The notes under the pieces are model-generated. The model was not told the DNA's origin and searched no databases. It worked only from the letters and a program-made list of their open reading frames with translations. Source: Rhodothermales bacterium (lineage in GTDB: Bacteria; Bacteroidota; Rhodothermia; Rhodothermales; UBA10348). From it: DNA of 64,000 bases. Both the position numbers and the translations under genes were made by a program. Location of the stretch: NCBI GenBank assembly GCA_028284865.1, contig JANQQV010000020.1:124001-188000 (forward strand), read 5' to 3'. Within the stretch, counting starts at the first letter, position 1. Each line of letters begins with the position of its first letter. Positions 31,964 through 50,840 of the stretch are shown here, in pieces.

Positions 31964-32038
31964 GGTCCGGTAGTTCAGTTTGGTTAGAACGCCTGCCTGT
32001 CACGCAGGAGGTCGCGAGTTCGAGTCTCGTCCGGACCG
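31964..32038 (+). tRNA. tRNA-Asp (GTC), island integration site
   Basis: Acceptor GGTCCGG pairs with CCGGACC, discriminator G, then encoded CCA at 32039-32041. The anticodon arm CCTGC-CTGTCAC-GCAGG reads GTC. Its 3' end (32027-32040) is the left copy of the attachment core repeated at 53045-53058, so the gene was kept intact on integration. Confidence 0.96.
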
Positions 32039-32040
32039 CC
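32027..32040 (+). repeat. attL core (tRNA-Asp 3' end)
   Basis: The 14-base core TCGTCCGGACCGCC is identical to 53045-53058. It spans the T-arm end and acceptor stem, the usual crossover for tyrosine integrases. Confidence 0.9.
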
Positions 32041-32041
32041 A

Positions 32042-32398
32042 AACAAAACCCCAACTTATTGCCTTGCAATGAGTTGGGGTTTTTTATTGGATCGCTGTTT
32101 CTATAGTGTAGATGGAAAGTACGCGTTTTGAGCCTGCTTGGTAATCACAGGAGCGACCAGATGTATGAAACAGTAAAGATGTCAGACGAGTGTAGACTTT
32201 GGTGTGTGTCCAATAATTCACATGGGGCCATGCCAGCCAATTCCCCCGCCATCATGCAGAGTATTGGGGGGCCCATGGTGAAGAGACGAACTCAGAACAT
32301 CTACGCATCTTCATGCCAATTCACTCTCCTGCGTTGACCTAACGCGTTCGAAAGTCGATTTTCAACTTGCAGAATCATTCAAAAATGCTGCAGGCGTC
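32042..32398. other. Island left-end intergenic region
   Basis: 357 bases holding the terminator and a doubtful 69-codon frame (32128-32337) with no recognisable content or ribosome-binding site. Confidence 0.55.
32046..32085 (+). terminator. tRNA-proximal rho-independent terminator
   Basis: An AACCCCAACTTATTG stem with its complement after a short CCTTG loop, followed by a T6 tract. It lies just inside the island and replaces the original terminator, now at 53065-53093. Confidence 0.88.
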
Positions 32399-35317
32399 GT
32401 GTCTCGCTTCCTCCTCTTTTTCGCCTTCTTTGTTTGGGCAGGGCAAGAATCCACTGCCCAGACGATTGCTTGGAGTGGTGCAGGACTCCCGAACTTCACG
32501 CACGCCGGGACCAGCCAGCTCGATGTGCAGCGTCTTGCAACCGTCAACATTTCTGGTCGCCCATTGGGAAGCATCATCCGAAGGGAAGACGGCACCGTTC
32601 GGTGGTGGAAGGGTGACATTACGAATCCAGGCCCCAAGCTTGGAAAATCGAACGAAGCATACTCCTCTTCAGTCGCCGCTTCGCTAGATAGCATTGAACC
32701 ATTCCTTCTTATCTCTCGACCCAGCGAGAATCTTGATGCGGTTAAGGTCAACATCGACGAAAGGGGTAACCACCACTTCAGATTTCAGCAGTACCACCTT
32801 GGTCTTCCGGTTTGGAAGTCCTTCGCTATTGCGCACGTTTCTGAGGAAGGCGCACTCTATGCGCTGAACGGAGATTATGTCTCCAGTAGTCGACTTCCCA
32901 GGGAGTACCAGCAACCTATCCGCCCAGATGAAGCGATACAATCGCTGCCACCGGCCTTTGAGTTACTTATAGTGCAGGGAGCTGATCCAGCACCCATACT
33001 TTCTTTCGTCCCGCTCAAATCAGGCGAAGTCATTTTGGCTTACGTAATTCGTCGATCAACAAGCCTCAGGGAGACCTGGGATTTTGTTGTAGACGCGTAC
33101 ACTGGAGAAGTGGCAGAAAAGCATCCCTTACATGCTGCCCACACACATTCTAGAGGCAGTTTCCAGTCAAGTGCGTCGCCTGATCTAACTGGCCAAGTCA
33201 AAGGGTTTCGTTCATACATAGAAAGTGATGGCAGGCAGGCGCTGATCTGGGACACCCCGAACATCGATCCAGTTTTTTCCCTGGATGATGGCCCTTCAGT
33301 TGGCGGAATCCTCACTATAGAGACTGATGGTCAGAATTTTACGCATGTAGCACCTTCCAGTGGAGTGTGGAACCCAAGTGCTGTAAGCGCTCATATCAAT
33401 GCGAAGATTGCATATGACTACTTTTCTAGTCAATTCGGGCGCAAGGCCATTGACGATCTTGATGGCACCATTTATAGCATTGTTGGAATCCAAGAGGATG
33501 GTGCGTTTTGGAACAATGGAGTCATGCTATATGGGGTTGGTGGGCAGATTTTTGAGCCGCTTGCCGAAGCTCTTGATGTCGCAGCCCACGAGATGACTCA
33601 CGGGGTCATAGAGCACAGTGCTGGCTTGGAGTATCGCGGTCAATCTGGAGCGCTTAGCGAGTCCTTCGCTGACATTTTCGGTGTACTAGTCGAAAACGAA
33701 GACTACTTGATCGGAGAAGATGTAATCAGAAACGGAGTTGCATTGCGGGATCTTTCTAACCCCTCGAATGCGAATTTGCTAAGTCCCCAACCGTGGCATA
33801 TGTCAAATTTCGAGGTCCTTCCAGAGACGAAGGAAGGAGACTATGGCGGAGTCCATAAAAATAGTGGGATACCCAACTATGCAGCTTTCCTGGTGATCAA
33901 TGCACTGGGAACTGCAGACGCCGCCAGTATCTATTATCGCGCCTTAACAAACTATCTGACTCCTCGCAGCCAATTCTTCGATGCACGAATGGCGCTGGAA
34001 GCTGCTGCTATTGATCTCTTTGGTGATGAATCTGGGCAGCTCCAAGTAGTTAGGAGCGCCTTTGACGTAGTTGGGATAACAACTGACGGACTCCCTTCAG
34101 ATTCCGGAGACAACGATGTTCCGGCAGTATTAGGAATCAGTTCCATAGCTATGGTTGCGGATAACGGATCTGTGATGATTCTAAATACACTTCTAAATGA
34201 GGTCGTCACTTACCTCTCTGCACCCCTTGTTAACGATGGATCACAGTTGTCAATACCAAGAAATGGTCATCACCTCTACTACGCCGACACCCGCGGAAAG
34301 GTAATCAGACTGGATATGCGTTCGGGGGAATACGCGGTGTCTGAAGCAGTTTATGCAACTACTCCTGGAGACGTTCGAAATGCGGTTGTTTCACCAGATG
34401 GTTCGCTTCTGGCATATTCGTCTAGCGAATTAACTGATTCGGCACTTTACTTCGCTGATAGTGAGATTTCTGGGGTGCGTCTTCCTCTGACCGCACAAAC
34501 GACCCAGCCTGGAATTTTGGACAGGAGTATTGTTTATCCAGATGTCATCTCTTGGTCACCCAACATGGATGATCCGCGGATTGCATTTGACGCACTTCGC
34601 AGTGTCCACACGGGACCGAATCCAGTTGCCTTTTGGTCCACTTATGTGATTGACTTCCTCTCGGGCCGTATTTCGAACTTGGTCCCTACGCAGCTTCAGT
34701 CGACTGACCTTGGCAACTTTACATTCTCAGCAACAGATCCTGATTTAGTCGCTTTCAATGAGATTGATAGAACCTCCGACACAACCTATCTCCATGTATG
34801 TGACTTGAATGCGGCGTTTACATGCTTGGAGCTCGGTGTATCTCTTGGTTTGCCAGATGCAGAGCGACCAACATTTAGCCCCAGAAGTGATTCGGTCGCC
34901 TTCACTAGTGCCGAGAACAATCAACTAATCCTCTCCCCTTTCGATGCGACCACTGCTATAGCGTATACCTTCGCACAGCCAGTCCGCAATCCACTTTGGT
35001 TCGCCTGGGATGCGGAGTCATCAGTTGATTCCGAAAGACCGTGGAGCAACTTGCATGGTGACCTGGTGGTTGATCTATATCCGAACCCCTCATCAACCAA
35101 AGTAACCATTGATCTGAATGACGCTAGGCGTATTCAGTCTTCCTTTAGAGTCTTCGACCTTCTTGGGCGTGAGGTTTCAAGCTCAGGAGAACACGTCTTT
35201 GCCACGGGAAGTGCATCGTACGAACTAGACGTTAGCTCCTGGAGACCTGGCGCATATCTCCTTAGAATCTCTTCGGGCACCCTTGAGTCCACCTCCATCC
35301 TCGTCGTCGCGAGATAG
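32399..35317 (+). CDS. M4 (thermolysin-type) metalloprotease with T9SS sorting domain
   Basis: A 972-aa secreted protease. A GTG start gives a signal peptide (hydrophobic residues 3-15), then a FTP/PepSY-type propeptide. The M4 catalytic domain has HEMTH at about residues 397-401 (zinc histidines and catalytic Glu), and the third zinc ligand Glu in ALSESFADIFG about 20 residues later. A beta-rich region, possibly a beta-propeller, fills about 580-870. The C-terminal 80 residues form a Por/type IX sorting domain (YPNPSS, VFDLLGREV, GAYLLRIS). It is the first gene of the island and the only obviously secreted protease in it. Confidence 0.9.
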   Translation: MSRFLLFFAFFVWAGQESTAQTIAWSGAGLPNFTHAGTSQLDVQRLATVNISGRPLGSIIRREDGTVRWWKGDITNPGPKLGKSNEAYSSSVAASLDSIEPFLLISRPSENLDAVKVNIDERGNHHFRFQQYHLGLPVWKSFAIAHVSEEGALYALNGDYVSSSRLPREYQQPIRPDEAIQSLPPAFELLIVQGADPAPILSFVPLKSGEVILAYVIRRSTSLRETWDFVVDAYTGEVAEKHPLHAAHTHSRGSFQSSASPDLTGQVKGFRSYIESDGRQALIWDTPNIDPVFSLDDGPSVGGILTIETDGQNFTHVAPSSGVWNPSAVSAHINAKIAYDYFSSQFGRKAIDDLDGTIYSIVGIQEDGAFWNNGVMLYGVGGQIFEPLAEALDVAAHEMTHGVIEHSAGLEYRGQSGALSESFADIFGVLVENEDYLIGEDVIRNGVALRDLSNPSNANLLSPQPWHMSNFEVLPETKEGDYGGVHKNSGIPNYAAFLVINALGTADAASIYYRALTNYLTPRSQFFDARMALEAAAIDLFGDESGQLQVVRSAFDVVGITTDGLPSDSGDNDVPAVLGISSIAMVADNGSVMILNTLLNEVVTYLSAPLVNDGSQLSIPRNGHHLYYADTRGKVIRLDMRSGEYAVSEAVYATTPGDVRNAVVSPDGSLLAYSSSELTDSALYFADSEISGVRLPLTAQTTQPGILDRSIVYPDVISWSPNMDDPRIAFDALRSVHTGPNPVAFWSTYVIDFLSGRISNLVPTQLQSTDLGNFTFSATDPDLVAFNEIDRTSDTTYLHVCDLNAAFTCLELGVSLGLPDAERPTFSPRSDSVAFTSAENNQLILSPFDATTAIAYTFAQPVRNPLWFAWDAESSVDSERPWSNLHGDLVVDLYPNPSSTKVTIDLNDARRIQSSFRVFDLLGREVSSSGEHVFATGSASYELDVSSWRPGAYLLRISSGTLESTSILVVAR

Positions 35318-35888
35318 ACCAGTCAAGATTGAAATAGAAAGGGAAATTGCCGCTACTAGACCTTTGTTAGCTCGGTGAGTGCTTTCGTCTCGTACCGGTT
35401 CTTTGAATCAAAACCGTTGTTTCCGACATGAGCAGATTATCGATAAAGGTGACTCCGACCGACCGGAGTCACTTGGTCTTCGAAATACGGGGAAGCTAAC
35501 ACTGAGACAAACAAATGTGCATTCGCGACAGTAGGTGCATCCTGTACGTAGAGTGAACTACACAGCGCTCGAGGAAGGATGCCATGCGAGGAAGGGCCCA
35601 CATAGCGTGAGCCATCGATAGGTTCGCTTCGGACTCTATGTGATCGCCGCCCGGACCCAATCGTCTGCAACGTGTATTCAAGTACCATTCTCTTTAGGGG
35701 GAGTATGGCCTTCTGGGGCAAAGGATGGGATAACGCTTCCGGCTGATTCTCCGGCGCAAAGGAGTAATCATCTCTGTGGCTAGGACCTGAAACCAACCTT
35801 CGATACCTGGATCAATAGACAAGCTCAAGTCCGGGGAGCTAGCCTTACGGCTAGCCCCCCGGTTGATGTTCGATGCCAGGCAGAGTCG
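35318..35888. other. 571-base intergenic region
   Basis: No convincing gene. A 119-codon minus-strand frame (35437-35796) has unusual composition and no recognisable domain. The hairpin at 35831-35862 is the only clear element. Confidence 0.55.
35831..35862. terminator. Bidirectional hairpin
   Basis: CCGGGGAGCTAGCC-TTAC-GGCTAGCCCCCCGG, a 14-bp stem with one mismatch. It lies 27 bases past the stop of the two-helix membrane protein gene on the minus strand. There is no strong T-run. Confidence 0.6.
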
Positions 35889-36131
35889 TTAGGACTTGGA
35901 CTTAGCAGCGGTCCTTTCCAATAAAAACACTCCTAGTGCTGCGACCAACACCAGCAGGAAGGTCCTTGTTGGAAATGTGTACCCCTCAGTAGTAGTCATG
36001 TAGGCGTCTATACCGAAGGCCAGAACCATTAGAATTGCCGCAAAGATATACAATGGCTTTTTAAAGGGCCGCAATACCCGCAGTCCTCTTTGCAGAGTCG
36101 CCCAGGATGCTTTTTCACTTTCCATAACCAT
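35889..36131 (-). CDS. Small two-helix membrane protein (possible immunity protein)
   Basis: An 80-aa basic protein with a charged N terminus, a helix at about 29-46 (YIFAAILMVLAFGIDAYM), a short polar loop, a second helix at about 57-73 and a lysine-rich C terminus. No named family is recognised. It begins 6 bases after the stop of a lipoprotein carrying a halocin-like domain and is probably co-transcribed with it. Size and position resemble bacteriocin immunity proteins, but that is inference. Confidence 0.7.
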   Translation of the reverse strand: MVMESEKASWATLQRGLRVLRPFKKPLYIFAAILMVLAFGIDAYMTTTEGYTFPTRTFLLVLVAALGVFLLERTAAKSKS

Positions 36132-36137
36132 ACCTGT

Positions 36138-36917
36138 TTATACCAATAACGCTTCTTGTAGAGGGTTTCTCAAGGGATGCGATTCAAGCTGTGGTTTTGC
36201 CTGAATCGCAAACTGTTCATGACACTCCGCTAGGCACTGGTCCAGATCAATGGCATGGGCTGCGAGAAGCGCAAGCTCAGCGGTGACCAATAGTCCAGCG
36301 CAAATAAAGGCTGCAGGACCGCATGCGGCGATTCCAACTGCCGTAGCCGTGTGCGTAGCAACAACCTTTAGGGTATAGCTAATCGTGCAGTGTTGGCAGT
36401 CCTCCTTCCCTGCGAACCCGTACAATGCAAAATTCGCATCCAAAGACCTAGACCCGAATTCCGGATCGATCTGCAAAATTCTAGCTGCAGCTGCTCGATA
36501 TAGGGTGTCTTCGTTGAACGTAACCAGGCTAGCCTTGATTGTCTCGACTGTTTTGGCAAGTCTCTCCAGTTTCTGTTGGTCGGCTCTATCCCCTTTCTTC
36601 AGCTCTTTCTTCAGCTTAGCAACAGCCCGCTTCAAATCGCTCTTCTTCTCGTTTCCTGCTCCCTTTATGCGAGTCTCGATGGAAGGACTAACTTGAAGTG
36701 CAACGTTTAGGAGGATGTCTCTTACGCTATTGTACGATGCAATAGCAGTCTTCGCTGCTGACAATTCCTCATCGCTCAGACCATTGCCCTCCGGCAGCAC
36801 ATAGTCTTCGTATGTTTCTTGATTTCCCTCACTCACCATCGTGGATGAGTCACAAGCGCTTAGTAAGCTCGCGAATACCAAGAACGCTGCGAGTGCAGCA
36901 AGTGTGTTCTTTTTCAT
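36138..36917 (-). CDS. Lipoprotein with halocin C8-like six-cysteine C-terminal domain (paralogue A)
   Basis: A 259-aa lipoprotein. The ATG at 36917 gives MKK, a hydrophobic stretch and the lipobox LLSAC (Cys22). The middle (about 50-170) is helical and highly charged, a likely coiled coil. The C-terminal 75 residues are hydrophobic and Gly/Ala-rich with six cysteines in the order CxxC, C, C, then CxxxC, including EDCQHC and FICAGLL. This spacing recalls halocin C8, whose precursor is cut into an N-terminal immunity part and a C-terminal toxin. The downstream paralogue shares the GKEDCQHCxISYxLKxVA stretch. Function is unproven. Confidence 0.75.
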   Translation of the reverse strand: MKKNTLAALAAFLVFASLLSACDSSTMVSEGNQETYEDYVLPEGNGLSDEELSAAKTAIASYNSVRDILLNVALQVSPSIETRIKGAGNEKKSDLKRAVAKLKKELKKGDRADQQKLERLAKTVETIKASLVTFNEDTLYRAAAARILQIDPEFGSRSLDANFALYGFAGKEDCQHCTISYTLKVVATHTATAVGIAACGPAAFICAGLLVTAELALLAAHAIDLDQCLAECHEQFAIQAKPQLESHPLRNPLQEALLV

Positions 36918-37017
36918 TGTCCATGCGGATTTTCCCTGCCTCGTGCAACAACTACTTGTTTCGACAAACGCGAACCCGTTATTAAGCAAGAGACCTGGGT
37001 GATGATAGTTTTCCTAT

Positions 37018-37713
37018 TCAGGCTCCTTCTTCCCTGCACTCCTTCTTGCAGACAGTCAGGTCATAAGTCACCGAGGTAATGGCAGTTGCTTTCACCGCCG
37101 TAACCCCAGCTGCACAGAGGGGGAATCCAAAGGTTGAGCCTGCACACGCAATCAATCCTGCTCCCCAGGCCGTTTCAATCGCAACCATTTTTAGGGCGTA
37201 GGAAATATCGCAATGCTGACAATCCTCTTTGCCCACACCCAGGTATTTCGCTTGAACCTCGTAAGGACTGAGGTCACCGAATCCAGGGTCAATCTCCAGT
37301 ATTCTATTCACGATGATTGCCGAGAGCTGTTGCTCATTGAGACTGATCACCTTCTCAAGGTCTCTATGCAGCTTTGCTGTCAGTCTCTCTACTTTTCTAA
37401 GATTCGCCGACTCTCCTTTAGCCAATTCCGCCGACAACCTTTCGCGGCTTGCAAGCATCTTGTCGATTGCCGAATGACCCCTCCTTTGTGACCGTAGTGC
37501 CACCGGACCAGCAACCCGCTCGCTAAATTGATGGAGAAGGGCTCCAATGTCTGATGTGCTGTTCGCTGCAGTTTTTGCAGCCTGAAGTCCCTCAGTAGTG
37601 AGGAATTCTTCACCTTCGAGGGATCGAGCCTCTTCTCTCTCGATCGATGAGTGGTCGCAAGCACCAACTAGTAGCGCAACGAACACTACCGCAAGAATGT
37701 GTCTGTAGTTCAT
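37018..37713 (-). CDS. Lipoprotein with halocin C8-like six-cysteine C-terminal domain (paralogue B)
   Basis: A 231-aa lipoprotein, first gene of the minus-strand unit. The ATG at 37713 gives a signal segment and the lipobox LVGAC. A charged helical middle region is followed by a Gly/Ala-rich C-terminal domain with six cysteines in the same order as paralogue A (EDCQHC, IACAG, PLCAAG, VCKKEC). Outside this domain identity is low, so the two are old duplicates held together by the Cys domain. The longer frame to 37839 has no export signal. The 100-base gap to paralogue A suggests one transcript. Confidence 0.75.
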   Translation of the reverse strand: MNYRHILAVVFVALLVGACDHSSIEREEARSLEGEEFLTTEGLQAAKTAANSTSDIGALLHQFSERVAGPVALRSQRRGHSAIDKMLASRERLSAELAKGESANLRKVERLTAKLHRDLEKVISLNEQQLSAIIVNRILEIDPGFGDLSPYEVQAKYLGVGKEDCQHCDISYALKMVAIETAWGAGLIACAGSTFGFPLCAAGVTAVKATAITSVTYDLTVCKKECREEGA

Positions 37714-38199
37714 TTGCCTTCTGTTTGCGTGGAAATAAAGCCAGCGACTATCCCGGTAAACGCTGCTTGGTAAACAGATGACACTCCCTCTCATAATTCG
37801 TAACGCAACATCGTCGCGAAAAACGACAGAAACAGCCAATACTTGAGCAGAACGATTGGACCTGGGACTGGAAATGCACTGAGAGTGCTTCTTGCGTAAT
37901 CCTTAGGCGTGGTGATGTGGACCTACCTGGCAAAGGTCTTTGGTGTCTTTTCACCCTAGGCGTACTGTGACCGACTTACCTGTCAGCCTGGCAGGAGATG
38001 ATCTCCGATCACAGTCAATTATCGGAAGTAGTCCAATCCGGAGAATTCAAACAACGCAGGGGTAAAGTTGAATCTACCCATAGCGCCTACTCATTACTTT
38101 CCGAATAGCGGTCGGTCCTGCTAGAAGTCATTGGAGATTGGGTACTTCTGCCCGTTGACAATCTGCATGCTTCATCCGTAATTCTCCATAATCCAGACA
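37714..38199. other. 486-base divergent regulatory region
   Basis: Sits between the lipoprotein unit (minus) and the kinase unit (plus) and must hold both promoters. It has no gene of its own. It contains nested inverted repeats at 37964-38015. Confidence 0.6.
37964..38015. promoter_or_regulatory. Nested inverted repeats (possible operator)
   Basis: ACTGTGA (37964-37970) and TCACAGT (38009-38015) are perfect inverted repeats enclosing a 17-base near-palindrome, CCTGTCAGCCTGGCAGG (37979-37995, one mismatched pair). The arrangement suits a dimeric regulator or a structured leader. Confidence 0.5.
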
Positions 38200-39708
38200 A
38201 TGACATATGCCGTGACCTTACTCGGACTTGAGCTTTCAGACTTTGCAATCGTCATGCAATTCCCGCTGGTTCTATCACTAGCCGCGGTGAGTTATTCTTT
38301 TGCAAGTGGCTTTAAGGATAAAACCTTCGAGCTTTTGACGGTAGCATGGCTTCTCAACCTCGCATACTTGATAACGCGATATTTCCCAGAGTACACTGTA
38401 TTTGAGGACTCGTGGAGAGGGGATCTTGTAAACACAGGGACAATTCTCCACTACGGATTGGCTATAGCTGGTTCATACTGTTTTTGGGCCGCTGGCAGGG
38501 AGCTAGAACCGAAACGATCAATAAGTTTCGTTAGACTTGCATCAAAAAGAGTAATTAAGGGATTCGCCCTGATAAGCCTGGCGTGTATGTTTATCGTCCC
38601 TCTTTTTGCTGGGGAGGATAATCTCAAATTATGGGGCGCGTTTTCCATGGTTCCAGCAACGGCATTTTCATTGATCGCTCTCCTTTCGACCGCGGGAGCA
38701 ATCAAAGACTTGACCCAACATCCCAACACGCTCGATGGTAAAGACATAGCGGTTGTATTAACTGGCTTTCTAATTTATACGGCCATCCAACCACTATTTA
38801 TACTCTCAGGTCCTTATTCGGCTGTTACCGGGCCAACGATGCTCGGAGGTCTCAGTGTGGACGCGGTTGGTTTTGGAACAAGTTTCATATCTAAGGTGGT
38901 CATATTCTTTGGGTCACTTCTGATGTTGAAAGTTTTTGCAAGTAGATCACTTTCGCTTGACACTCTGAAGCGAATGAAAGCTCGAGTGTTGCATGAGCTG
39001 GGGACCCCGGTACCTCAAATGGAGGCAGAGATTTACTTGCTCATGCAACGTGGTGGTAAAGTATCTTTAAGGTCCCTCAAGGAGTTGCACAACATAGCGC
39101 TACGAGCTCTGGCACTACTCCGAGCATCCCAAGAAATACCTCCACATGACTTTTTCCATGCCGGAGAATTGATAATGGAGGATGTGGATGAGTCCGAATT
39201 GTTTAAAGATGAAAGTGTCCATTCGATCAACACTATTGTAGAGGCTGCCCGGGTGGCTATAAAGAGAACAAGAGAAGAAAATCCAGTTTTCTCGCTGAGC
39301 TATTCTCGTAATTGCTGCTACTCCGGTAGTCCTATTTTAATGGTGCAAGTGGTTATCAACATCTTGCGCAATAGCTGTGACGCCATGCCGAACGGTGTAG
39401 GAACCATCAGAATACACACTTCTACACACAGAGAAGGAGAACGAGATTTTGTAATACTCAATATTTGTGACGACGGCGAAGGTATTCCCAAAAAGATTCT
39501 AGAGAGAAATGAACAATATCTCGACGGTTATTCCACTCGTGGCACAATGACCATGGGAAGAGGTTACGGTCTTGGGATTACCAAGCAGATCGTCGAACAC
39601 CTAGGTGGCACTATTGAAATGGCGAGTCCCGGTGCACTTATGATCGATGATTTCCGAAAAGGCACCGACGTCACGATTCGTCTCCCCAAGTCTTCATGCG
39701 ATTCTTAA
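38200..39708 (+). CDS. Membrane sensor histidine kinase
   Basis: A 502-aa kinase with seven or so membrane helices in residues 15-245 and no extracytoplasmic domain. The dimerisation helix has the H-box VLHELGTPVPQMEAE with phospho-acceptor His265. An HATPase_c domain shows the N-box INILRNSCDAMPNG, the G1 box DDGEGIP and the G2 box GRGYGLGITKQIVEHLGG. The seven-helix sensor resembles 7TM or MASE-type modules. It starts a three-gene plus-strand unit, facing away from the halocin-like lipoprotein unit, with a response regulator 25 bases downstream. Confidence 0.85.
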   Translation: MTYAVTLLGLELSDFAIVMQFPLVLSLAAVSYSFASGFKDKTFELLTVAWLLNLAYLITRYFPEYTVFEDSWRGDLVNTGTILHYGLAIAGSYCFWAAGRELEPKRSISFVRLASKRVIKGFALISLACMFIVPLFAGEDNLKLWGAFSMVPATAFSLIALLSTAGAIKDLTQHPNTLDGKDIAVVLTGFLIYTAIQPLFILSGPYSAVTGPTMLGGLSVDAVGFGTSFISKVVIFFGSLLMLKVFASRSLSLDTLKRMKARVLHELGTPVPQMEAEIYLLMQRGGKVSLRSLKELHNIALRALALLRASQEIPPHDFFHAGELIMEDVDESELFKDESVHSINTIVEAARVAIKRTREENPVFSLSYSRNCCYSGSPILMVQVVINILRNSCDAMPNGVGTIRIHTSTHREGERDFVILNICDDGEGIPKKILERNEQYLDGYSTRGTMTMGRGYGLGITKQIVEHLGGTIEMASPGALMIDDFRKGTDVTIRLPKSSCDS

Positions 39709-39733
39709 TACCCATCCAATCGATCCACAAATA

Positions 39734-40402
39734 ATGGAAGCAGCGAAGTTCGAAGAACATATTCTATCAAAACCAGCCTTTATCGATGATGACCCGTCAA
39801 TCGTAAGGCTTTATTCTCGATTTCAGAATCACTATGGCTCGCCTTCGATGTCGACGTCAGATCCCGCCGAGCTTTATGGCTGGGTCGAGCGTGGGGAGGC
39901 TGATTGCGTTATTAGTGATTTACGAATGGGTGGGATTTCCGGCGTTGATGTATTGACGAGAGTTCACGAGATCGACCCCGGAATGCCTCTCATCCTTCTT
40001 ACGGGTTTCATGCCGCTGCCAGAAGAGAAAAGCAGATTGGATATCATCGGCGCGATCGTAAAACGCAAAAGCCAGGACCTCATTGATACACTTGAATCGT
40101 TTTTGCGGCAAGACATCGACACCTATTCTGTTGACATGCTGGAGGCTCGCCAGCAGCTTGAAGCAGCAAAAGAACGAGAACGATCCCTTTCGCGTTCACT
40201 TCGACCTTATGCTACCATGCTACTTTCATCACTTGAATCGATAGAAAACAAAGATACGGTTATTACAAAAGGAGATGAAGTGTTTACGGTGGGTGAGTTG
40301 ATAAGCGAAGTCAGCCAAGATGAAATTGGACAACGCGGACTTTACTACATCCAGTTAATCGGAGAAACAATTAAGACGGCGAAAGACTTGATGAAACGAT
40401 GA
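39734..40402 (+). CDS. Receiver-domain response regulator without DNA-binding output
   Basis: A 222-aa protein. The receiver domain (about 10-125) has an FIDDDPS acidic pocket, the phospho-acceptor Asp in VISDLRMGG, Thr in LILLTGF and Lys in IVKRK. The C-terminal half is a coiled coil (LEARQQLEAAKERERS) with no helix-turn-helix or enzyme motif. The ATG at 39734 is chosen because the receiver begins at once; the longer frame overlaps the kinase gene. Its output is probably protein-protein contact, perhaps with the next gene product, whose start overlaps this stop by 4 bases. Confidence 0.8.
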   Translation: MEAAKFEEHILSKPAFIDDDPSIVRLYSRFQNHYGSPSMSTSDPAELYGWVERGEADCVISDLRMGGISGVDVLTRVHEIDPGMPLILLTGFMPLPEEKSRLDIIGAIVKRKSQDLIDTLESFLRQDIDTYSVDMLEARQQLEAAKERERSLSRSLRPYATMLLSSLESIENKDTVITKGDEVFTVGELISEVSQDEIGQRGLYYIQLIGETIKTAKDLMKR

Positions 40403-41085
40403 TATCTTTTCCATTTTCGAGAAAAAGAAAGCGCAAACCAGTTGGTCTCGCCATTTTCATTCCATGGGATGAAAAGGAGTTAGACGCCGTTGAGATAGCA
40501 TATGCAGACTGCAAATCCGATCTAGAAGCCGATCGATGCCATGTCCAGAAGATCAAATCCTGGTCCCCTTTCGCAGATCAGGCCCTTTCGGAACACTTAT
40601 CAAGGGATAATCGATATATAATGGTCTTTGCGCATTTCGGTCCAGCAAGTGTTGGCCTAGCCGTATCCCCAGGTCGTAATTTTGCAATTCGAGCGCCTTG
40701 GTGGAACGTCGAGACGAAAGCGCTCTGCAAGATAGCATACTTTAGAGTTTGTGCAGGCTCGGCACTTCTCGCTCAAGTTGATTGGAGAGTGTTATTTCCT
40801 TCGTGGATTTCTTATACCAATAGACCCACCTACATAAACTCTGCGAGGTCGCGGAATCACTGGCATGCCCAGACGATGAGGGTCAAAGAGATTTTGAGTC
40901 AGTCGCTTGATTCGAAATCAGCTGCGAGAGAAATCAGAATTGATTATCAGCGCAGAATCACAAGACTAGTCAATGACGAATCCAATCCTGAAGATCTTTT
41001 CACCGCCGCATGTATGCAGGAGGCAATGAAAGGTCTTACTTCAAGTGGCCCCGGAAATAGCTCTGGGGGTACTAAGAACTTCTGA
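40399..41085 (+). CDS. Unknown protein with caspase/CHAT-like His...Cys arrangement
   Basis: A 228-aa protein of no named family. It has a predicted alpha/beta core in which IMVFAHFG (His79) is followed 39 residues later by AYFRVCAGSALL (Cys118) and then a FPSWISYT strand. This order matches clan CD peptidases (caspases, CHAT): a hydrophobic strand ending in His-(F/G)-G, then a strand ending in a catalytic Cys near small residues. A basic tail follows. It is tightly coupled to the response regulator by an ATGA overlap. The protease idea is inference and needs structure prediction. Confidence 0.55.
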   Translation: MISFPFSRKRKRKPVGLAIFIPWDEKELDAVEIAYADCKSDLEADRCHVQKIKSWSPFADQALSEHLSRDNRYIMVFAHFGPASVGLAVSPGRNFAIRAPWWNVETKALCKIAYFRVCAGSALLAQVDWRVLFPSWISYTNRPTYINSARSRNHWHAQTMRVKEILSQSLDSKSAAREIRIDYQRRITRLVNDESNPEDLFTAACMQEAMKGLTSSGPGNSSGGTKNF

Positions 41086-41120
41086 TCCATTCCTATGACG
41101 GCAATAAGTGATTCAGGTGT

Positions 41121-41564
41121 TCACAATTTGACCATAGGTACAAAGAAGGTAAATGCTGGCATAACCAAGCCAGCTATCCACGGTTCGTACCATCTCAGCC
41201 CAGTAAAGGGCCCACCGATTGCAAACACCCAAACAACAAAGCAAAGAACGGATAGCGTTAGCTGCTTCTGATTTGACACGTTGTTGATTCTCTGAAGATA
41301 GAAGTACGTACCAACGCAGCAGACTCCAAATACTACCCATTCTAACCCCGTCCCATTTTTTTCTGCCGCCGTTAGATTGGAGTTCATCAAAACCCACAGC
41401 GCAATGACCTCTGCCGGAATGTATTTGAGTAGCTTGTCCTGGTATCGATCTAGCCTTGGACGAAGCTGGGCTGCTGGCTGAGGCTCATCACCTACTCCAA
41501 AATCTGCGGTCTGCAAGGCATCGATTGCCTCCAAGTCTTTTTCCGTAATTATTTGACGTCCCAT
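41121..41564 (-). CDS. Small polytopic membrane protein, unknown
   Basis: A 147-aa protein. An N-terminal cytoplasmic part (about 1-45) precedes three or four membrane helices: YIPAEVIALWVLM (about 48-60), VVFGVCCVGTYFYL, LSVLCFVVWVFAIGG, and a C-terminal helix IAGLVMPAFTFFVP. The segment around KLLKYIPAEVIALW looks like a conserved feature, but I cannot name the family. It is convergent with the kinase/regulator/protease-like unit. Confidence 0.65.
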   Translation of the reverse strand: MGRQIITEKDLEAIDALQTADFGVGDEPQPAAQLRPRLDRYQDKLLKYIPAEVIALWVLMNSNLTAAEKNGTGLEWVVFGVCCVGTYFYLQRINNVSNQKQLTLSVLCFVVWVFAIGGPFTGLRWYEPWIAGLVMPAFTFFVPMVKL

Positions 41565-41692
41565 TTACTTCTCTCTTGGATGCGGAGCGCTGCCAACTAG
41601 GACATTAACTCAAGTTATTGCCACAAGTCAACGACTAGCAGCTATTCCATTACACAATAACACTATCACCTACTATTTTCAAGGAATCGTAC

Positions 41693-41711
41693 AGTGTTGC
41701 ACTGCAACACT
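41693..41711. promoter_or_regulatory. 19-base perfect dyad
   Basis: AGTGTTGCA-C-TGCAACACT is a perfect inverted repeat around one central base, typical of a homodimeric repressor operator. It lies upstream of the minus-strand membrane protein gene and the small plus-strand frame at 41751. Confidence 0.55.
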
Positions 41712-41750
41712 ATGCACTCCGTTTCTGCCTGACTGAGGATCTTGGTGGAG

Positions 41751-42002
41751 ATGAAAACCAAACCGACCCTACTGACGCCCCCAGTGCAGAATGAGCTGTT
41801 GGAATTGTTGATAGAGCTCCTGACATACCCGGGGACGACGAAACTGCTAATCCTATGGTCAGTGATGGAGCGATGCAGGTCGTTTAACACAGAGAAATTC
41901 CAAATCAGCCGCCAGCAAGAGGCATCGATAATGTTTCATGACGCTATAAACTGTTTGGAGAGGCCCTTACGTGTGGCACGGAATCGATATCCCAGGACCT
42001 GA
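41751..42002 (+). CDS. Possible small protein, unknown
   Basis: An 83-codon frame starting MKTKPTLL with a helical, leucine-rich N-terminal half (NELLELLIELLTYPGTTKLLIL). A GGTGGAG precedes the ATG too closely for a good ribosome site. The nearby palindrome at 41693 would suit autoregulation. It may be a spurious frame. Confidence 0.35.
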   Translation: MKTKPTLLTPPVQNELLELLIELLTYPGTTKLLILWSVMERCRSFNTEKFQISRQQEASIMFHDAINCLERPLRVARNRYPRT

Positions 42003-42081
42003 TTTGCCCAATGAATCAGGTGTGGGCCACCGCGTTCTCCGGTCCAGGCAACCTAGTTCGATCACTGTAGTCTTGCGACAT

Positions 42082-42648
42082 TCACAACGGCACTCGATCA
42101 ACGCTCCATTGAAGATCAGAGTGATGGAGTTGCGTCGTTCCTCCTTGAACCATTGCAGCGCAAGGTATGGCCAATGGCGTACCCTGGGGAGTCACAGTTG
42201 TTATGATGAGGTCAAGTGTCATTGCAAAGATGCCCGACCTCATCTTCTCTGCAATCAGTGCATACAGGCTTTGTTGTTTGAATGCATTGAGCTCACCGAA
42301 GCGAGAAACCATGGTGCCGTGCTGCACCTTGTACACACAACCCAGAACGGGTTTTCCTTGAATGATGTCTTCGATCGATTGCGCCCACGGCCATTGGCCT
42401 GCTGAACGGTGCAAGACAGAACGCTCACTGTCATTGGGGTTCTCCTTCGAAGGCTTAGGAGCATCCTTCACCCCGACGTGTAGGTCCTCCAATAAAATCC
42501 CTTTCAACACGCCTTCTGGAGATTGGACGGCCGCGGCGCGGTAGTCTATACCTTCACACTCTCGTCCCTCTCGAATCGATTGTAGGATTGCTGTGTGCGA
42601 GACGTTCATTTTCCTGGAAATGGCTCTAATCGAGCAGACGGTTTTCAT
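42082..42648 (-). CDS. Helix-turn-helix-like protein, unknown
   Basis: A 188-aa protein. The N terminus has a helix-turn-helix-like stretch, IRAISRKMNVSHTAILQSIREG (read in two parts around RKMNVSH). The rest has no recognised domain. The start overlaps the previous stop by 4 bases; it is the last gene of a tight excisionase/replication-like operon in the island, so a regulatory or replication role is likely. Confidence 0.65.
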   Translation of the reverse strand: MKTVCSIRAISRKMNVSHTAILQSIREGRECEGIDYRAAAVQSPEGVLKGILLEDLHVGVKDAPKPSKENPNDSERSVLHRSAGQWPWAQSIEDIIQGKPVLGCVYKVQHGTMVSRFGELNAFKQQSLYALIAEKMRSGIFAMTLDLIITTVTPQGTPLAIPCAAMVQGGTTQLHHSDLQWSVDRVPL

Positions 42649-42980
42649 CTTTCTTCTGAATTTGGAGTGTGCTCAGCAATGACTTCTTCTTTGATCCAGT
42701 AGCGAGGAACTCTCACTTCAGAATAACCGGGAAATCGTCGCCTTTCATCCTTCGTCAGCTGATCAGTTTCGGCTTGGCCGTGCAACATGTCCTCCTCCGT
42801 AATTCCGTAACACTTTCGAAGCCTAGGAAGGTCACCACGAGCATAGAGGCGTCCGATGCGAACACGTCCATCTTCAATTGCCTGTACAAATGCTTCGCGT
42901 TGGCGACGCTCTGTCTCAATCAGGCGTGAATCCTGTGGGACAAACTCCTCGAATGAATTGACCGGGCTTTTCGATTTCAT
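42645..42980 (-). CDS. Small hypothetical protein in xis/rep operon
   Basis: A 111-aa highly charged protein with no named family. It overlaps its neighbours by 4 bases on both sides (ATGA), so is co-translated with the replication-like gene upstream and the HTH gene downstream. The C-terminal part (EVRVPRYWIKEEVIAEH) may be a small DNA- or protein-binding fold. Confidence 0.65.
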   Translation of the reverse strand: MKSKSPVNSFEEFVPQDSRLIETERRQREAFVQAIEDGRVRIGRLYARGDLPRLRKCYGITEEDMLHGQAETDQLTKDERRRFPGYSEVRVPRYWIKEEVIAEHTPNSEER

Positions 42981-43825
42981 ATCGGTTCCTCCGTCATATG
43001 ATCTAGCGGATTGGTTGACGGCCGATATGGTCGCGTCACAATCTCAGTGTGCTGTACGCTTGCTGCATAGTCTTCTTGAATCGCCTTCACCAACAAACCT
43101 GGGGTTTTGGGAGATGACTTGGCCTCGTAGAATGAGAGATTCCTAACAATGCAATCCTCATCAAACTGCAACAACAATTTCGATGCCATTGAGTCGCGAA
43201 TGCCCACTTTGATAAGCTTCTTCTTCAGGCCCTCGTCGACCTGTTGAGTGTTGTGTATTTCTGGATTTTGATTTCCTGTGTTGTTAGTTGTGCGTTCGAG
43301 CTGCGTCTTTTGCTCGTCTCGAATGCGCTTCTTTTGGTTCTCGTTAACCGACGGCTTTGGGCTCAATTCCTGTTCTAGTGGCACATGCGAGCCGTTTTGG
43401 GCAGTGTGAACACTCGTTCTTGACGGAGTAGAGCCTGTCACTCCATTGCGTTTGCAGTGCAATTCCCACTGAGCGAATGCGTACGGCCATTCCTTTTTTG
43501 CCTTTCGGGCCAGCTCATAGGTCCACTGACTACCATAGCCTGTTGTCCACATGATCACGAGGGCAATTGCCTCAGCCCATCGATTGCGAATGGCTGTGGG
43601 GCTAGGTCCCCATATTCGAGCATATTCGCGCTGCGACTTTACTTGTGAACCATTGAGGTCCAGCATCATCATGACGGCAAGAGAACGTGGCGTAAGCTCA
43701 CTACTACGCAAGTCCAGAAACGTCTGTGCGTCACAATTGAACAGAAACGGTTTACGACCTAATGAGCCGAAGTCAAAGTTAAAGCGATCGACTCCTTCAC
43801 CTGTGCGACTAGACATCCTCTGCAC
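42977..43825 (-). CDS. Replication-initiator-like protein
   Basis: A 282-aa protein. The N-terminal 110 residues look like a winged-helix region, with MMMLDLNGSQVKSQREYARIWG as a possible recognition segment (in two parts). A polar linker follows, and the C-terminal 80 residues (LIKVGIRDSMASKLL, then GLLVKAIQEDYAA) resemble the DnaD/RepA-type C-terminal module of plasmid and phage initiators. The start overlaps the excisionase gene by 17 bases. It suggests the island can replicate or once did. The assignment rests on pattern similarity only. Confidence 0.55.
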   Translation of the reverse strand: MQRMSSRTGEGVDRFNFDFGSLGRKPFLFNCDAQTFLDLRSSELTPRSLAVMMMLDLNGSQVKSQREYARIWGPSPTAIRNRWAEAIALVIMWTTGYGSQWTYELARKAKKEWPYAFAQWELHCKRNGVTGSTPSRTSVHTAQNGSHVPLEQELSPKPSVNENQKKRIRDEQKTQLERTTNNTGNQNPEIHNTQQVDEGLKKKLIKVGIRDSMASKLLLQFDEDCIVRNLSFYEAKSSPKTPGLLVKAIQEDYAASVQHTEIVTRPYRPSTNPLDHMTEEPI

Positions 43826-43997
43826 CTATTGTGTGATGAGAGATAAATTGCTCAACTTCTTCCGGAGAGAAACGGATTGCAGATCCTAAATAGACCGCCT
43901 TCAAAAGGCCTTTTCTGCGCAGTTTCCAGAGCGTGGTCCTTCCAACGCTCAGCCGATCACAAACTTCGGCTTGCGTCATTAACTTTCGATTTTTCAT
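43809..43997 (-). CDS. Excisionase-family helix-turn-helix protein
   Basis: A 62-aa MerR-like DNA-binding protein of the excisionase/AlpA kind. It reads MTQAEVCDRLSVGRTTLWKLRRKG, the winged HTH, followed by the wing GSAIRFSPEEVEQFI. The ATG at 43997 places the HTH at the N terminus. It heads the rep-like operon. Together with the integrase it would promote excision of the island. Confidence 0.82.
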   Translation of the reverse strand: MKNRKLMTQAEVCDRLSVGRTTLWKLRRKGLLKAVYLGSAIRFSPEEVEQFISHHTIGAEDV

Positions 43998-44098
43998 GGT
44001 CTCGTTTTCGAATATGAACGGTGACGTACTATCGAAACCTACCACGACTTGCCTATTCAATGCTGTTCAGGTTTTTGGGGCCAAATCCTCAACAGGAT

Positions 44099-45244
44099 TC
44101 ATGATTTCTGACTCCCGTACTTGATTGCGACATCCTCATAGACCTCGTAATTCGGCAACAAGGCTTCAGTCTTCATGATTCCCCAAATCACTTCTGCCTC
44201 TTGCTCGAGTCCTTCGCCGTCCGGCCACGTACCAGTATCTCTCATGCTGTCATTGTAGCCCGACCTTGCCTTTCCAACTTGTTGTGCGATCGAAGCTTTG
44301 TTTACCGTTGCTGGCGGGTGAAATCCTGCAGCAAACAATCGTCTCAGATACTTCCAAGATGGAGCCTCATTCATAAGACCTCCACCTGTATTTAATTTGT
44401 CAAACAACAAGAGGATCATGATTCCATAGTCGCTCAGACTGCCTCGAAAAATGACTTCCTTGCTCTTGCCTCGAATGCGTAGCTGAGAGTCTTCGGTCAG
44501 CGATACGATGGACTCGACATCAAAACCATCGTAAACCGGAATGACAGAAAGCGTTGCTAGACTCTCTTCAAGGTTCTTCGCTGCGAAAAGTGAACTCATG
44601 TATTCGACAACATTGTCTACATATTGACGCCTCCTTGACTGAACAAATGATTCCAAACGCAAGATGGACTTGTGGAACAAAGGCGAGAACCTGGCTCTTG
44701 TATCGTTCCAATCCGTTAGGTCACGACTCCCATCAAGCGCGAAAGCTTCGAATGGTATCGTCAATTTCTCCCAGGGTACGTTATAGTTGAAGTGAGCAAC
44801 AGCAAGCCCTCTTTTGTACAGTTTGACATCTGAAAGAAAACCTTTCCTGGCACGTTTGATTTGTCGCCGCGCGGCTTTTCTTATGATTTTGATGGCTGCT
44901 TGTGCTCCAAGGAAATCCGGTTTGGGCACCGTAAAACGCTCGAGGAGGTGCTGGTCGTGGGCGTCGTAGCGTCTAGATCCAACTTGCATGAAGTCTTGGC
45001 CGAGAATGGTGGAGCTCTCTTTGTCGATGACCTCAACAAAATTGATTTCACCAAAGGGGTCCTCCAGGCAATCCGTGATCACTTCTGCCCACTTTCTGGA
45101 ATCGATAATGACTTCGTCGCGGCTCGTGATATGAGTCATGGGCAACTCGAGCACCACAGCGTTCAAGTACCCGCTCGCCTCTTCATCCCACGTTTCGCGT
45201 GAAATAAATTGGTTTTGAGAATCAAATTGGTCTGTTAACGCCAT
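44099..45244 (-). CDS. Large unknown protein of the island
   Basis: A 381-aa cytoplasmic-looking protein with no recognised domain. It is mixed alpha/beta with a basic helical region (AAIKIIRKAARRQIKRARKG) about residues 125-150 and no membrane segments. The ATG at 45244 is preferred over the TTG at 45286. It lies on the same strand just upstream of the excisionase operon, with about 100 bases between. Confidence 0.65.
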   Translation of the reverse strand: MALTDQFDSQNQFISRETWDEEASGYLNAVVLELPMTHITSRDEVIIDSRKWAEVITDCLEDPFGEINFVEVIDKESSTILGQDFMQVGSRRYDAHDQHLLERFTVPKPDFLGAQAAIKIIRKAARRQIKRARKGFLSDVKLYKRGLAVAHFNYNVPWEKLTIPFEAFALDGSRDLTDWNDTRARFSPLFHKSILRLESFVQSRRRQYVDNVVEYMSSLFAAKNLEESLATLSVIPVYDGFDVESIVSLTEDSQLRIRGKSKEVIFRGSLSDYGIMILLLFDKLNTGGGLMNEAPSWKYLRRLFAAGFHPPATVNKASIAQQVGKARSGYNDSMRDTGTWPDGEGLEQEAEVIWGIMKTEALLPNYEVYEDVAIKYGSQKS

Positions 45245-45370
45245 AGTTGGAATCGATTGTGACAGGTTTGAGGCAGCGCTTTCCAACGAAGCATCGTGTT
45301 TGGAAGGAGCTCACGATCTTGACCAAACTAACGGGTGATTCGGGGACACCTCGACAGGCTAAGCACTAAT

Positions 45371-45679
45371 TCAAGTAGCCCCAGCCTTACCCACCAATGA
45401 CTGGAATGCCGTTCTTGCCTGATTTGCTTGGTAATCCGCATCTGATCTGATGTATTTGCGGGCTGTCTTTAGGTCATCATGCGTAGTGGAAAGCACGGAT
45501 GTCAAGTCTCCTGTTTCTTGAAGCATGAGCGTTACGAAGGTTTTCCTAGCAATGTGGAACGTTATCACATCATGAGGCGGCCCAACACGCAGGTTGGTAA
45601 GCGCGCCACTTCGTGAGAGCTGACTGACATTGCGTTGCAAACCAGCCGCCTGAGCGATCTCTTTGATATTATTGACCAG
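45371..45679 (-). pseudogene. C-terminal stump of a second tyrosine integrase
   Basis: About 100 codons that align with the C terminus of the intact integrase at 51707-52903: NxxEIAQAAGLQRNVS, HIARKTFVTLML, ETGDLTSVLSTTHDDL and ARKYIRSD. The HxxR and catalytic Tyr segments are present, but the arm-binding and core N-terminal domains are gone. The upstream break at 45680 joins it in frame, through one TAG, to an IS3 transposase remnant. Confidence 0.85.
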
Positions 45680-45680
45680 C

Positions 45681-46470
45681 TATAGCCTGGCCAACCAACC
45701 CACGACGCGACGCGAGAAGAGTTCAATGACAACGGCCAGGAAGAGCCACCCCTCGGCCGTTGGCAAGTAGGTGATATCCTGCCCCTCCCCGCGCCTGAGC
45801 GTTCGGGGCAAACTGACGAAAAAGTACGTTGTATTTTAATGCTTCGAGCGGGGCGGCTGATGTCTGGTGGCGCCGTTTATGTCGCCGAGGGCGTTGATGC
45901 ACTCCTGCTTCTTCAGACTAGCCACGCGAGGACGACCAACTTCAACGCCAGCATTGACGCGAGATGCTCCGAAGATGCCATGGCTAGCCCTGCGGATCAC
46001 TGTTAAATGCTGGACGAGCCGCTGGTTTTACTGCCTGCGGTTGCTGATGTCTCAATTGCACATTGGTGTACTCACTTAGCTAGAGATGCATCATTACGCA
46101 AGCTCTTGCCACTGGGATAGCCCCTTGAATCGCTTCCAAGACCCGGTATTCCAACGAAAAGCTCTGCTGACGATACCGGCGGCCTTGTTTCGAACGAGGC
46201 TCCCCCTCCCCAACGTGCTTGTTTTCACGACGCTGATAGGCACACTCTTCATCGCGTGGATCGCGATGACCGAGAATCGCTTGTCTGCCACCCTCCTTTG
46301 TCTGATACTGTCAGCGGCGCAGCAAACAAGTGTTGACACCCAGCTTTCAAGCTGTCTGACTGACGTTGCCCCTGATCTCGGCAAGTCTGACCGCCTCCTC
46401 CTAAAACTCCCTTGTACACGTCTTCCTTGCGCTCATCGCGTACCTCATGATTGATGCTTACGTGCGCTTA
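45681..46470 (-). mobile_element. Decayed IS3-family insertion sequence (orfA and orfB remnants)
   Basis: Both transposase frames are readable on the minus strand but are broken. The OrfA part (about 46150-46420) gives AVRLAEIRGNVSQTA, stop, KLGVN, RQAILGHRDPRDEE and RRENK. The OrfB part (about 45681-46080) gives IRRASHGIFGASRVN, RPRVASLKK, then in another frame [17 protein letters not shown] and FSRRVVGW, the DDE-domain signature. At least two stops and two frameshifts are present. No inverted-repeat ends were identified. Confidence 0.8.
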
Positions 46471-46690
46471 ATCAGCAATCCGTTTTTTAGGAGCACGGTC
46501 ACATTGATTTATCAGCTAATGTCTTGGTGGTGTGGAAGACGCCTGATAAGCTATTCTTTGACAGTCTGACAGAGGTCCACTATTAGTATTCGTTACACTT
46601 GACGTCAGGTGTTAATGTGTCGTATATCAAATCAGCTGGAAATCACGCAGCCCATCCATTCCGAAGACCCCAACCTTGCTCCCGTCAGCC

Positions 46691-47890
46691 ATGAATAGCC
46701 ACTGGATAATTACAAATAGGGCAGTCGTTAAAAGAAAGGTTGGCGGTAAGATGGTAGAGGTCGTCGATGAGGGCAATGCCACAGTGCTCCCGACCTTTAG
46801 AGTAGCGCGCTTCGTCCCGCCTTCTACGTTTGAGGTAGCAAATGAGGATCTTTTGAAAGCAAATGTCGGCTTTGTCAAAGACGACTATTTCAACAGCTAT
46901 GGAAAGATCAATGCTCAGACCAATGAGAGGCGACTCAAAGGCACAAAACAGCTCTTTCTCGATCTATACAAGACCATGGCAAATGCAGGTCCTGATAAGG
47001 GAGATGTCTTGTTCTTCATCCATGGCTTCAATTCAGGATGGACCGATTCGCTCGCCCTTCTTCAGAAATTGCACAAGTTGTACGTAGAACCACGGGAATC
47101 CCGAATAAACCAGATTGTCCTCTACTCATGGCCGTCACATGGGAAGCTAATTAGATTTCCTTCACTGAAGCCTCGCGCATACTTAGACGATCAAGAAATC
47201 GCCCGCCAGTCGGGTGAATTGCTCGGACGCATATTCGGAAAAGTCCTTCGTTTCTATGCCGACATTTTTGATGAGGGGCGTGACGATAGGTTTGAGCATT
47301 GTGGCAATCGGATTCATCTTGCTGCTCACTCGATGGGTAATCAAGTATTAGAGGAGTTTATTGCCAGCATTTCTCGGCATTTCCAGTACACGCTGTTCAG
47401 TGAAGCAGTTCTCCTGAATGCCGACATCCCATGGACTGCCTTAGAAAAGGACCAGCCACTATACCGCTTGGGCGACTATTGCGAACGAATTCACATCTAC
47501 AATCATAAGAGCGATGACGCCCTCCTTGTTTCTGAGCGTAACAAGAACGGCAATCTTTTGAGAGGCAATAAAAGGTTAGGCAAATACGGTCCTCATGACT
47601 TATCAGCCATTCCCAACCGGGCAATCGTGGTTGATACAACGAAGACGAAGTTCGATGGAGTGATCGACGAAATTAGCGATCCCTACTACCTTGCAGCCTT
47701 GGAGTCGATAAAACAGTTCAAGATCCCCGGAGAGCAGAAGGAGCGGATTGCCGATCACTGGGGCTTTTTGTATCGACCTGCGGTGATTGGGGACCTAATG
47801 AGCGTGCTGGGCGGTCGTTCCACCACCGCCAACGAATACGAGTCGACCCGATCCAAAATGGGTCCGAATCTATTTAGACTCACTGGTTAA
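46691..47890 (+). CDS. DUF900-type alpha/beta hydrolase
   Basis: A 399-aa protein with an alpha/beta-hydrolase domain in the second quarter. The oxyanion HGFNSGW segment (about residues 111-117), the strand IVLYSWPSHGK and the nucleophile elbow HLAAHSMGNQ (Ser214) are as in DUF900 proteins, which are esterase- or lipase-like. No signal peptide is apparent. The ATG at 46691 is preferred over the TTG at 46676. It begins a three-gene plus-strand operon with the next two genes (27- and 36-base gaps). Confidence 0.8.
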   Translation: MNSHWIITNRAVVKRKVGGKMVEVVDEGNATVLPTFRVARFVPPSTFEVANEDLLKANVGFVKDDYFNSYGKINAQTNERRLKGTKQLFLDLYKTMANAGPDKGDVLFFIHGFNSGWTDSLALLQKLHKLYVEPRESRINQIVLYSWPSHGKLIRFPSLKPRAYLDDQEIARQSGELLGRIFGKVLRFYADIFDEGRDDRFEHCGNRIHLAAHSMGNQVLEEFIASISRHFQYTLFSEAVLLNADIPWTALEKDQPLYRLGDYCERIHIYNHKSDDALLVSERNKNGNLLRGNKRLGKYGPHDLSAIPNRAIVVDTTKTKFDGVIDEISDPYYLAALESIKQFKIPGEQKERIADHWGFLYRPAVIGDLMSVLGGRSTTANEYESTRSKMGPNLFRLTG

Positions 47891-47917
47891 CCCTCCTTAA
47901 AGGTCCGCGTTACCCTG

Positions 47918-48514
47918 ATGCACCACCTGACTCCTGATGAAATTGCTGATGTCATGAGTTCAAAGAGCTATACCGTTTTTACGGATAGCCGCGGACATGA
48001 CCTCAATCTGGTCGGTATTCGGACGAGCGATGATTCCGCTAATCGATTCAACGATTACTTCGCTGTTTTCTATCGCTATGACCAAGCTTGGACCCACTTC
48101 CTCTTCCCAATTACAACCGACCCTGGTACATATTGGCGCGAAAACCCAGAGCTCGTTAAGGGTACAGCAATAGTAAAGCCTGGGCAATATCGGAGTGCGT
48201 ACAAGATTGGTCGACATAGACGATACAAAGCGCTTCAGCAGGTAGGCACGATTACCGTCTTCAGGGACGCGAACAAGGACCGTCTCTTAGACACTACGGG
48301 AGTTGATGAGGACAGTGGACTTCATGCGATCAATATCCACCGTGCAAGCGCTACCAGGGCCAGCACACAGGTAGACAAATGGAGCGCCGGTTGCCAGGTG
48401 TTTCAAGACCCGGATCACTTCCTTTTCCTGCTAGCACTGTGCGAAAAAGCCAAAACAAAGTTCGGTAACTCTTTCTCGTACACACTGCTCGAGGACAGTG
48501 ACTTTGACGTCTGA
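47918..48514 (+). CDS. YkuD-like L,D-transpeptidase-type protein
   Basis: A 198-aa protein. His141 (INIHR) is followed 14 residues later by Ser156-Ala-Gly-Cys159 (WSAGCQVF). This reproduces the His-x14-17-[ST]-x-G-C spacing of YkuD L,D-transpeptidases, with Ala in place of the usual His before Gly. Those enzymes form or cut 3-3 peptidoglycan links. No signal peptide is seen. It is the middle gene of the hydrolase/nuclease operon. Confidence 0.65.
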   Translation: MHHLTPDEIADVMSSKSYTVFTDSRGHDLNLVGIRTSDDSANRFNDYFAVFYRYDQAWTHFLFPITTDPGTYWRENPELVKGTAIVKPGQYRSAYKIGRHRRYKALQQVGTITVFRDANKDRLLDTTGVDEDSGLHAINIHRASATRASTQVDKWSAGCQVFQDPDHFLFLLALCEKAKTKFGNSFSYTLLEDSDFDV

Positions 48515-48550
48515 ACCACTTCAATGCCATAAACACCGAATGGACTTGCC

Positions 48551-49411
48551 ATGAGAATGATTGTATTACTCCTTGCGCTACTTCTTCAGAACGGTGCTAG
48601 CCTCGCACAGGATTTTACGGCCGATCAACAAGATCTGATTGATGAGCATGTCTTTGGTGGCCTTCCGAGTTCAGACAATATTTTGGTTCGCAACGCTTAC
48701 GTAATGTCGTACAACAACGAACGACGGGTTGCCAATTGGGTCGCGTATCGAGTAGTGCCAGATTACCGAAAGACTCCTGACCGCTCAGGGCCTTTTGATG
48801 ACTTCGTAGAAGACCCAGATGTGGACGACGCAGTCAGCAGTAGTGACTACACGGGCTACTTCAGGAGCAGAGGGTATGCACGAGGCCACATGGTACCTTA
48901 TGCCGTTCTTGGAGGCGATCGTGATGGCGATGGGAAGTTTGCAACCGACGATGACCCTGAAGACGAGCTAACAGTGTTTCAGGGAAACTACATGAGCAAT
49001 GTCGCGCCACAGCACCATTATGGTTTCAACGGCTCCGGAGGGATCTGGTATAAGGCAGAAAGATGGCTCCAGGATGATCTGATCGATGACCAGCAAAGAA
49101 CAATTTGGGAGATAGCAGGAACCATTTTTGGTCCACAGAAGCTTGAGGAAATCGGTCCTGACAACAGTATTGAAGTACCGCCCCTTTTCTTCAAGATTAT
49201 GGTTTCAACGGAGGATGGGTCAGGAATACCGGAAGTGTTGGCCTTCCTGTTTCCGCATCACCGAAAAGCGCACGGTGAACTCGAGGACTATCTCGTCTCA
49301 GTAGATATCATCGAGTCTCTCACTGGTTTGGACTTTTTCAAAGAGCTGGACGACGACATTGAATCTGGAATCGAAGACAGAGACACCTTTGAAAATTGGT
49401 CTTCCTTTTGA
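48551..49411 (+). CDS. Secreted DNA/RNA non-specific endonuclease (NucA family)
   Basis: A 286-aa nuclease with a cleavable signal peptide (about residues 1-20, ending GASLAQ). The catalytic DRGH-type motif is YARGHMVP with His113, and the metal-binding region is NVAPQHHYGFN. An EF-hand-like insertion (DRDGDGKF, then DDDPED) lies directly after the catalytic motif and may bind Ca2+. It is the last gene of the hydrolase operon. Homologues degrade extracellular DNA or act as toxins. Confidence 0.87.
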   Translation: MRMIVLLLALLLQNGASLAQDFTADQQDLIDEHVFGGLPSSDNILVRNAYVMSYNNERRVANWVAYRVVPDYRKTPDRSGPFDDFVEDPDVDDAVSSSDYTGYFRSRGYARGHMVPYAVLGGDRDGDGKFATDDDPEDELTVFQGNYMSNVAPQHHYGFNGSGGIWYKAERWLQDDLIDDQQRTIWEIAGTIFGPQKLEEIGPDNSIEVPPLFFKIMVSTEDGSGIPEVLAFLFPHHRKAHGELEDYLVSVDIIESLTGLDFFKELDDDIESGIEDRDTFENWSSF

Positions 49412-49536
49412 AATGGCGATTATGCGTCAGCCGTGCGAATGACACTGTAATTTGATCCGAGGGAAGATGGATTCAACTCCCTTTAATGCGGTCACTGGGC
49501 CGACTCTCTTGTCGGAGATCGTGGCTAGCTAAGCGC

Positions 49537-50106: not shown

Positions 50107-50112
50107 GGAGGC

Positions 50113-50790: not shown

Positions 50791-50840
50791 AAAATTGCCA
50801 AATTGATCAATGTGGGGACACGAGCTATGTCAGGGGTGCC

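Follow-up and report, generated by a model that had tools for sequence, protein, structure and literature searches.

Receivers without a recognised output domain, combined with a kinase and expected to regulate by contact, are already known from the CpdR–ClpXP system and from single-domain receivers. CpdR acts on ClpXP by protein contact, an established mode of receiver action (PMC8973945), and a phosphoglycosyl transferase is reported as the target of a single-domain receiver (PMC12802240). The target of CpdR is, however, the housekeeping ClpXP (PMC8973945), while in the present locus the receiver gene shares an overlap with an orphan gene. Another close parallel is offered by caspase-bearing conflict systems, described in two reports (PMC7159879, PMC8195603) as small operons that combine signalling parts, receivers among them, with caspase-like effectors. 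Their receivers are described there without histidine kinases, whereas a kinase is present in our locus, and no MoxR, vWA, STAND or EAD part is seen in this operon. A limited literature search found no two-component system in which a dedicated protease serves as the direct output.

The operon lies in a 64,000-nucleotide stretch of a Rhodothermales contig (the window) and consists of three co-directional ORFs at 38200–41085, a histidine kinase gene followed by a receiver gene and then by ORF3, in agreement with the original prediction, which had placed a kinase, a regulator and a third gene in one operon:

38200..39708, + strand: sensor histidine kinase; membrane part residues 1–250, HATPase_c residues 378–497
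38992–38994: codon of kinase H265, in the H-box HELGTP
39647..40402, + strand: response regulator; receiver domain residues 46–142 (long form), tail of ~100 residues
39917–39919: codon of receiver D91
40399..41085, + strand: ORF3, orphan protein of 228 aa; ATGA overlap with the regulator
40633–40635: codon of ORF3 His79
40750–40752: codon of ORF3 Cys118

The listed receiver start at 39647 implies a 62-base overlap with the kinase gene. M30 at 39734 immediately follows the kinase stop and is more likely to be the true start, since in the long form the receiver domain sets in only at residue 46. The start of ORF3 falls inside the receiver stop (ATGA at 40399–40402), just where an overlap of regulator and third gene had been claimed. 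Four-base ATGA overlaps are a common sign of coupled expression, and this one suggests translational coupling of the two genes.

Both signalling proteins appear intact. A Pfam profile search detects HATPase_c in the kinase (E 2.3e-17), and alignment of its H-box with the HELRTP motif of 2c2a, a sensor histidine kinase, puts the phospho-histidine at H265. The kinase had been described as seven-helix; this is plausible, as its first 260 residues contain about seven hydrophobic stretches, but the count is inexact (eight hydrophobic peaks, five or six of them strong). No known sensor family from the profile libraries matched this membrane part. The receiver gives a Response_reg match (E 9.2e-13) and is canonical, with the acidic cluster D47–D49, D91, T119 and K139 all kept. 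Taken together, the kinase has the H-box histidine and the HATPase domain, and the receiver the aspartate, acidic cluster, threonine and lysine, that mark a two-component system, so that the phosphorelay half of the original prediction is supported as far as conserved residues and domains can tell. The regulator had also been called output-less, and indeed searches of Pfam, NCBIfam and PHROGs detected neither a helix-turn-helix nor any other output family in its tail. The PHROGs entry phrog_8810, whose match at E 0.007 fell on the tail, was not reproduced with the tail alone and was rejected. Homologue searches found no relatives of the kinase sensor part, the kinase core or the receiver tail.

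As no library recognises a DNA-binding or enzymatic domain in this receiver, protein contact is its most likely mode of action. The reading that we favour, at slightly better than even chances, is that of a three-gene signalling cassette on a tRNA-Asp island, whose receiver acts by protein contact on or through its orphan partner ORF3. The membrane kinase would sense a signal, autophosphorylate on H265 and transfer the phosphate to the receiver at D91; we infer this phosphotransfer from the adjacency of the two genes only. The receiver would then act through its tail, by protein contact, on ORF3, which is probably a cytosolic effector or connector. The link of ORF3 to the receiver is suggested by gene order alone. 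It should be noted that no homologous operon was found, that the gene order of one genome is weak evidence for interaction, and that the receiver could have a target other than ORF3.

The island on which the operon travels is delimited as follows:

32042..53058, no strand: integrative island of 21 kb, inserted at the 3' end of tRNA-Asp
32027..32040, no strand: att repeat, tRNA-Asp copy (TCGTCCGGACCGCC), at the end of tRNA-Asp
53045..53058, no strand: att repeat, distal copy, 14 bp recurring
51707..52903, − strand: tyrosine recombinase (integrase) of the island, beside the distal repeat

The tRNA-Phe and tRNA-Asp genes occupy 31751–32041, and G+C is lower over the 21 kb that come after them; at the distal end of this stretch the terminal 14 bases of the tRNA-Asp acceptor end are repeated. 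Downstream of the island lies a sulfatase-like gene; in six relatives, four of them of the same genus, the tRNA pair stands directly before the homologue of this gene, with no island sequence. The locus L078 presents a clean empty site, where the left flank runs as far as base 3148 of the locus and, from 3160, the right flank takes over on the same strand, the two overlapping by the repeat. The operon is thus cargo of a site-specific integrative island, and such a status fits its absence from relatives. A fragment at 45371–45640, with a weak Phage_integrase match, resembles by eye the C-terminus of the island integrase; it may be the remnant of a second integrase, and the island may be composite. 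Beside the tRNA end, at 32399–35317, lies the gene of an M4 (thermolysin-like) metallopeptidase with a Por_Secre_tail sorting domain. A cluster of three genes occupies 49537–51545; the first in the direction of transcription encodes a DUF2589 protein (E 3e-27), and the other two have no Pfam match.

The most serious alternative, in our estimate unlikely, is that ORF3 is independent cargo, co-transcribed with the receiver but unrelated to it, and that the receiver either has a target encoded in the chromosome or serves as a phosphate sink. The island does hold mixed cargo, which also includes the secreted M4 peptidase, lipoproteins, a DUF900 hydrolase and a nuclease, and conserved linkage was not found in the homologue searches; against this reading stands the four-base overlap of the receiver gene with ORF3.

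Whether ORF3 is a gene at all was open to doubt on account of its flat codon-position G+C (0.48/0.47/0.44). The codon score removed most of this doubt: under a model built from the other island genes the ORF3 frame scores +0.12 bit per codon and the other five frames are negative, the value being just under that of the lowest other island gene (0.133), where those genes are themselves the training set. ORF3 thus appears to be a real gene, perhaps foreign. Its N-terminus has a basic stretch and a signal peptide is not evident. The protein has no match in Pfam, NCBIfam, PADLOC, PHROGs or PDB. Searches found no relative in the overlapping sets of 148 relatives, 394 phylum-wide and 245 class-wide genomes; translated searches of plasmids and phages gave none either, nor did short-pattern scans of viral_contigs and two such scans of genome_contigs. 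The pattern scans, by which alone genomes of other phyla were covered, demand an exact match of 7–8 residues and reach close relatives only. Their queries A1–A3, the real protein and made-up variants of it rather than homologues, were meant to loosen the patterns and did so little, as two 7-residue patterns were used each time. The finding of no ORF3 relative is fairly firm within the class genomes and weak elsewhere. Three weak matches were rejected as noise: an efflux-pump gene hit in the wrong frame and a SecA-like protein, both named by eye from the translation, and a frame full of stops.

The original prediction saw in ORF3 a caspase/CHAT-like cysteine peptidase with His79 and Cys118 as its dyad and under the control of the phosphorylated receiver, a reading that we regard as rather improbable. 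Both residues are present, and as in clan CD peptidases (caspase C14, CHAT) each follows a hydrophobic stretch. Their spacing of 39 is near that in caspase-7 (42) and PmC11 (46), in a protein with five His, five Cys and six His–Cys pairs spaced 30–60. In a low-confidence model the elements follow as strand 15–21, a helix, strand 48–54, helix 59–68, strand 74–80, hairpin 83–101 and strand 109–116, an order that fits, crudely, the caspase/haemoglobinase core (PMC4357240); His79 ends strand 3 and Cys118 follows strand 4, as in that core. This order, compatible with a caspase core as it is, comes from the full-length pLDDT-38 model, and the two AlphaFold models obtained (pLDDT 38.4 and 38.8) are too poor to use. 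A pattern of hydrophobic strand and H(x)G followed by hydrophobic strand and C, defined after seeing ORF3, occurs in 0.2% of ORF3 shuffles and in one of the 48 ORFs of the window, namely ORF3 itself.

Other results count against a peptidase. No peptidase family in Pfam, NCBIfam, PADLOC or PDB matched ORF3 at any threshold. In a profile comparison of the single ORF3 sequence with 30 CHAT and 21 C14 domains, hhalign gave a probability of 0.1–0.2 against the CHAT and C14 profiles, and shuffles did equally well; the power of this test is low, since most single CHAT or C14 sequences themselves score <10% against the profile of the other family. Foldseek returned nothing significant, a result without weight given the unreliable models. 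ORF3 reads H79-F80-G81 and V117-C118 where His-Gly and Ala-Cys motifs would be looked for: PMC12445089 (Fig. 1 legend) gives His-Gly as conserved at the catalytic His, and the Ala-Cys motif is stated for clostripain and YabG rather than for the whole of clan CD. No homologue of ORF3 was found in which His79 and Cys118 could be compared. Of the proposed likeness to clan CD, then, the two residues stand, with a crude resemblance in the element order of a low-confidence model, and a catalytic pairing is confirmed neither by motifs nor, within the low power of that comparison, by profiles. A protease output may be hypothesised from modelled topology and two residues. A bona fide clan CD pair does exist elsewhere in the same genome, where a CHAT-domain protein has a caspase-family (C14) protein directly after it (contig C20:24282–25948), and the same CHAT-then-C14 pair occurs in another genus (G017, contig C29:4616–6260).

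The supposed substrates fare no better. The operon does diverge from a neighbouring lipoprotein unit, as had been noted: two divergent genes at 36138–37839 bear lipobox-like export signals (LVGAC, LLSAC). The label 'halocin-like' given to these lipoproteins found no backing in the profile libraries, where no such family matched. The two are mutual homologues, with single homologous proteins in three further genomes, where no kinase, receiver or ORF3 was seen beside the homologues among ORFs of at least 120 aa; the neighbourhoods covered were ~5 kb on each side in two genomes and, in the third, ~6 kb upstream and <1 kb downstream, where the contig ends. With these homologues occurring where no such operon was seen in the neighbourhoods covered, and with ORF3 having no evident signal peptide whereas the lipoproteins carry export signals, the proposal that ORF3 processes the lipoprotein precursors is not supported. 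In the window (35889–37839) and in the loci L046 (8368–9497) and L047 (8505–9480), one or more genes for Cys-rich lipoproteins precede a gene that encodes a small membrane protein. Lipoprotein and membrane protein form a possible recurring two-gene unit, an arrangement that, from gene content, would be toxin/immunity-like.

A diverged DNA- or RNA-binding domain in the receiver tail, which would make the protein an ordinary transcription regulator with ORF3 merely co-regulated, could be accommodated in ~100 residues without relatives, but we consider it improbable, as the output-family searches described above detected none. A stand-alone mobile kinase–regulator–protease module, in which the receiver directly switches a highly diverged caspase-fold protease encoded in its own operon, is likewise improbable.

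With ORF3 as the putative contact partner of the receiver, the cassette is, as judged from gene content and order, a real and mobile kinase–receiver–partner variant of the two-component system, whose receiver has no recognised output domain. Should ORF3 prove to be a protease after all, a two-component system would own a dedicated protease as its direct output. Even if it is not, the cassette joins a receiver without a recognised output to an orphan partner, both carried by a mobile island, and is a place in which to seek a new type of output.
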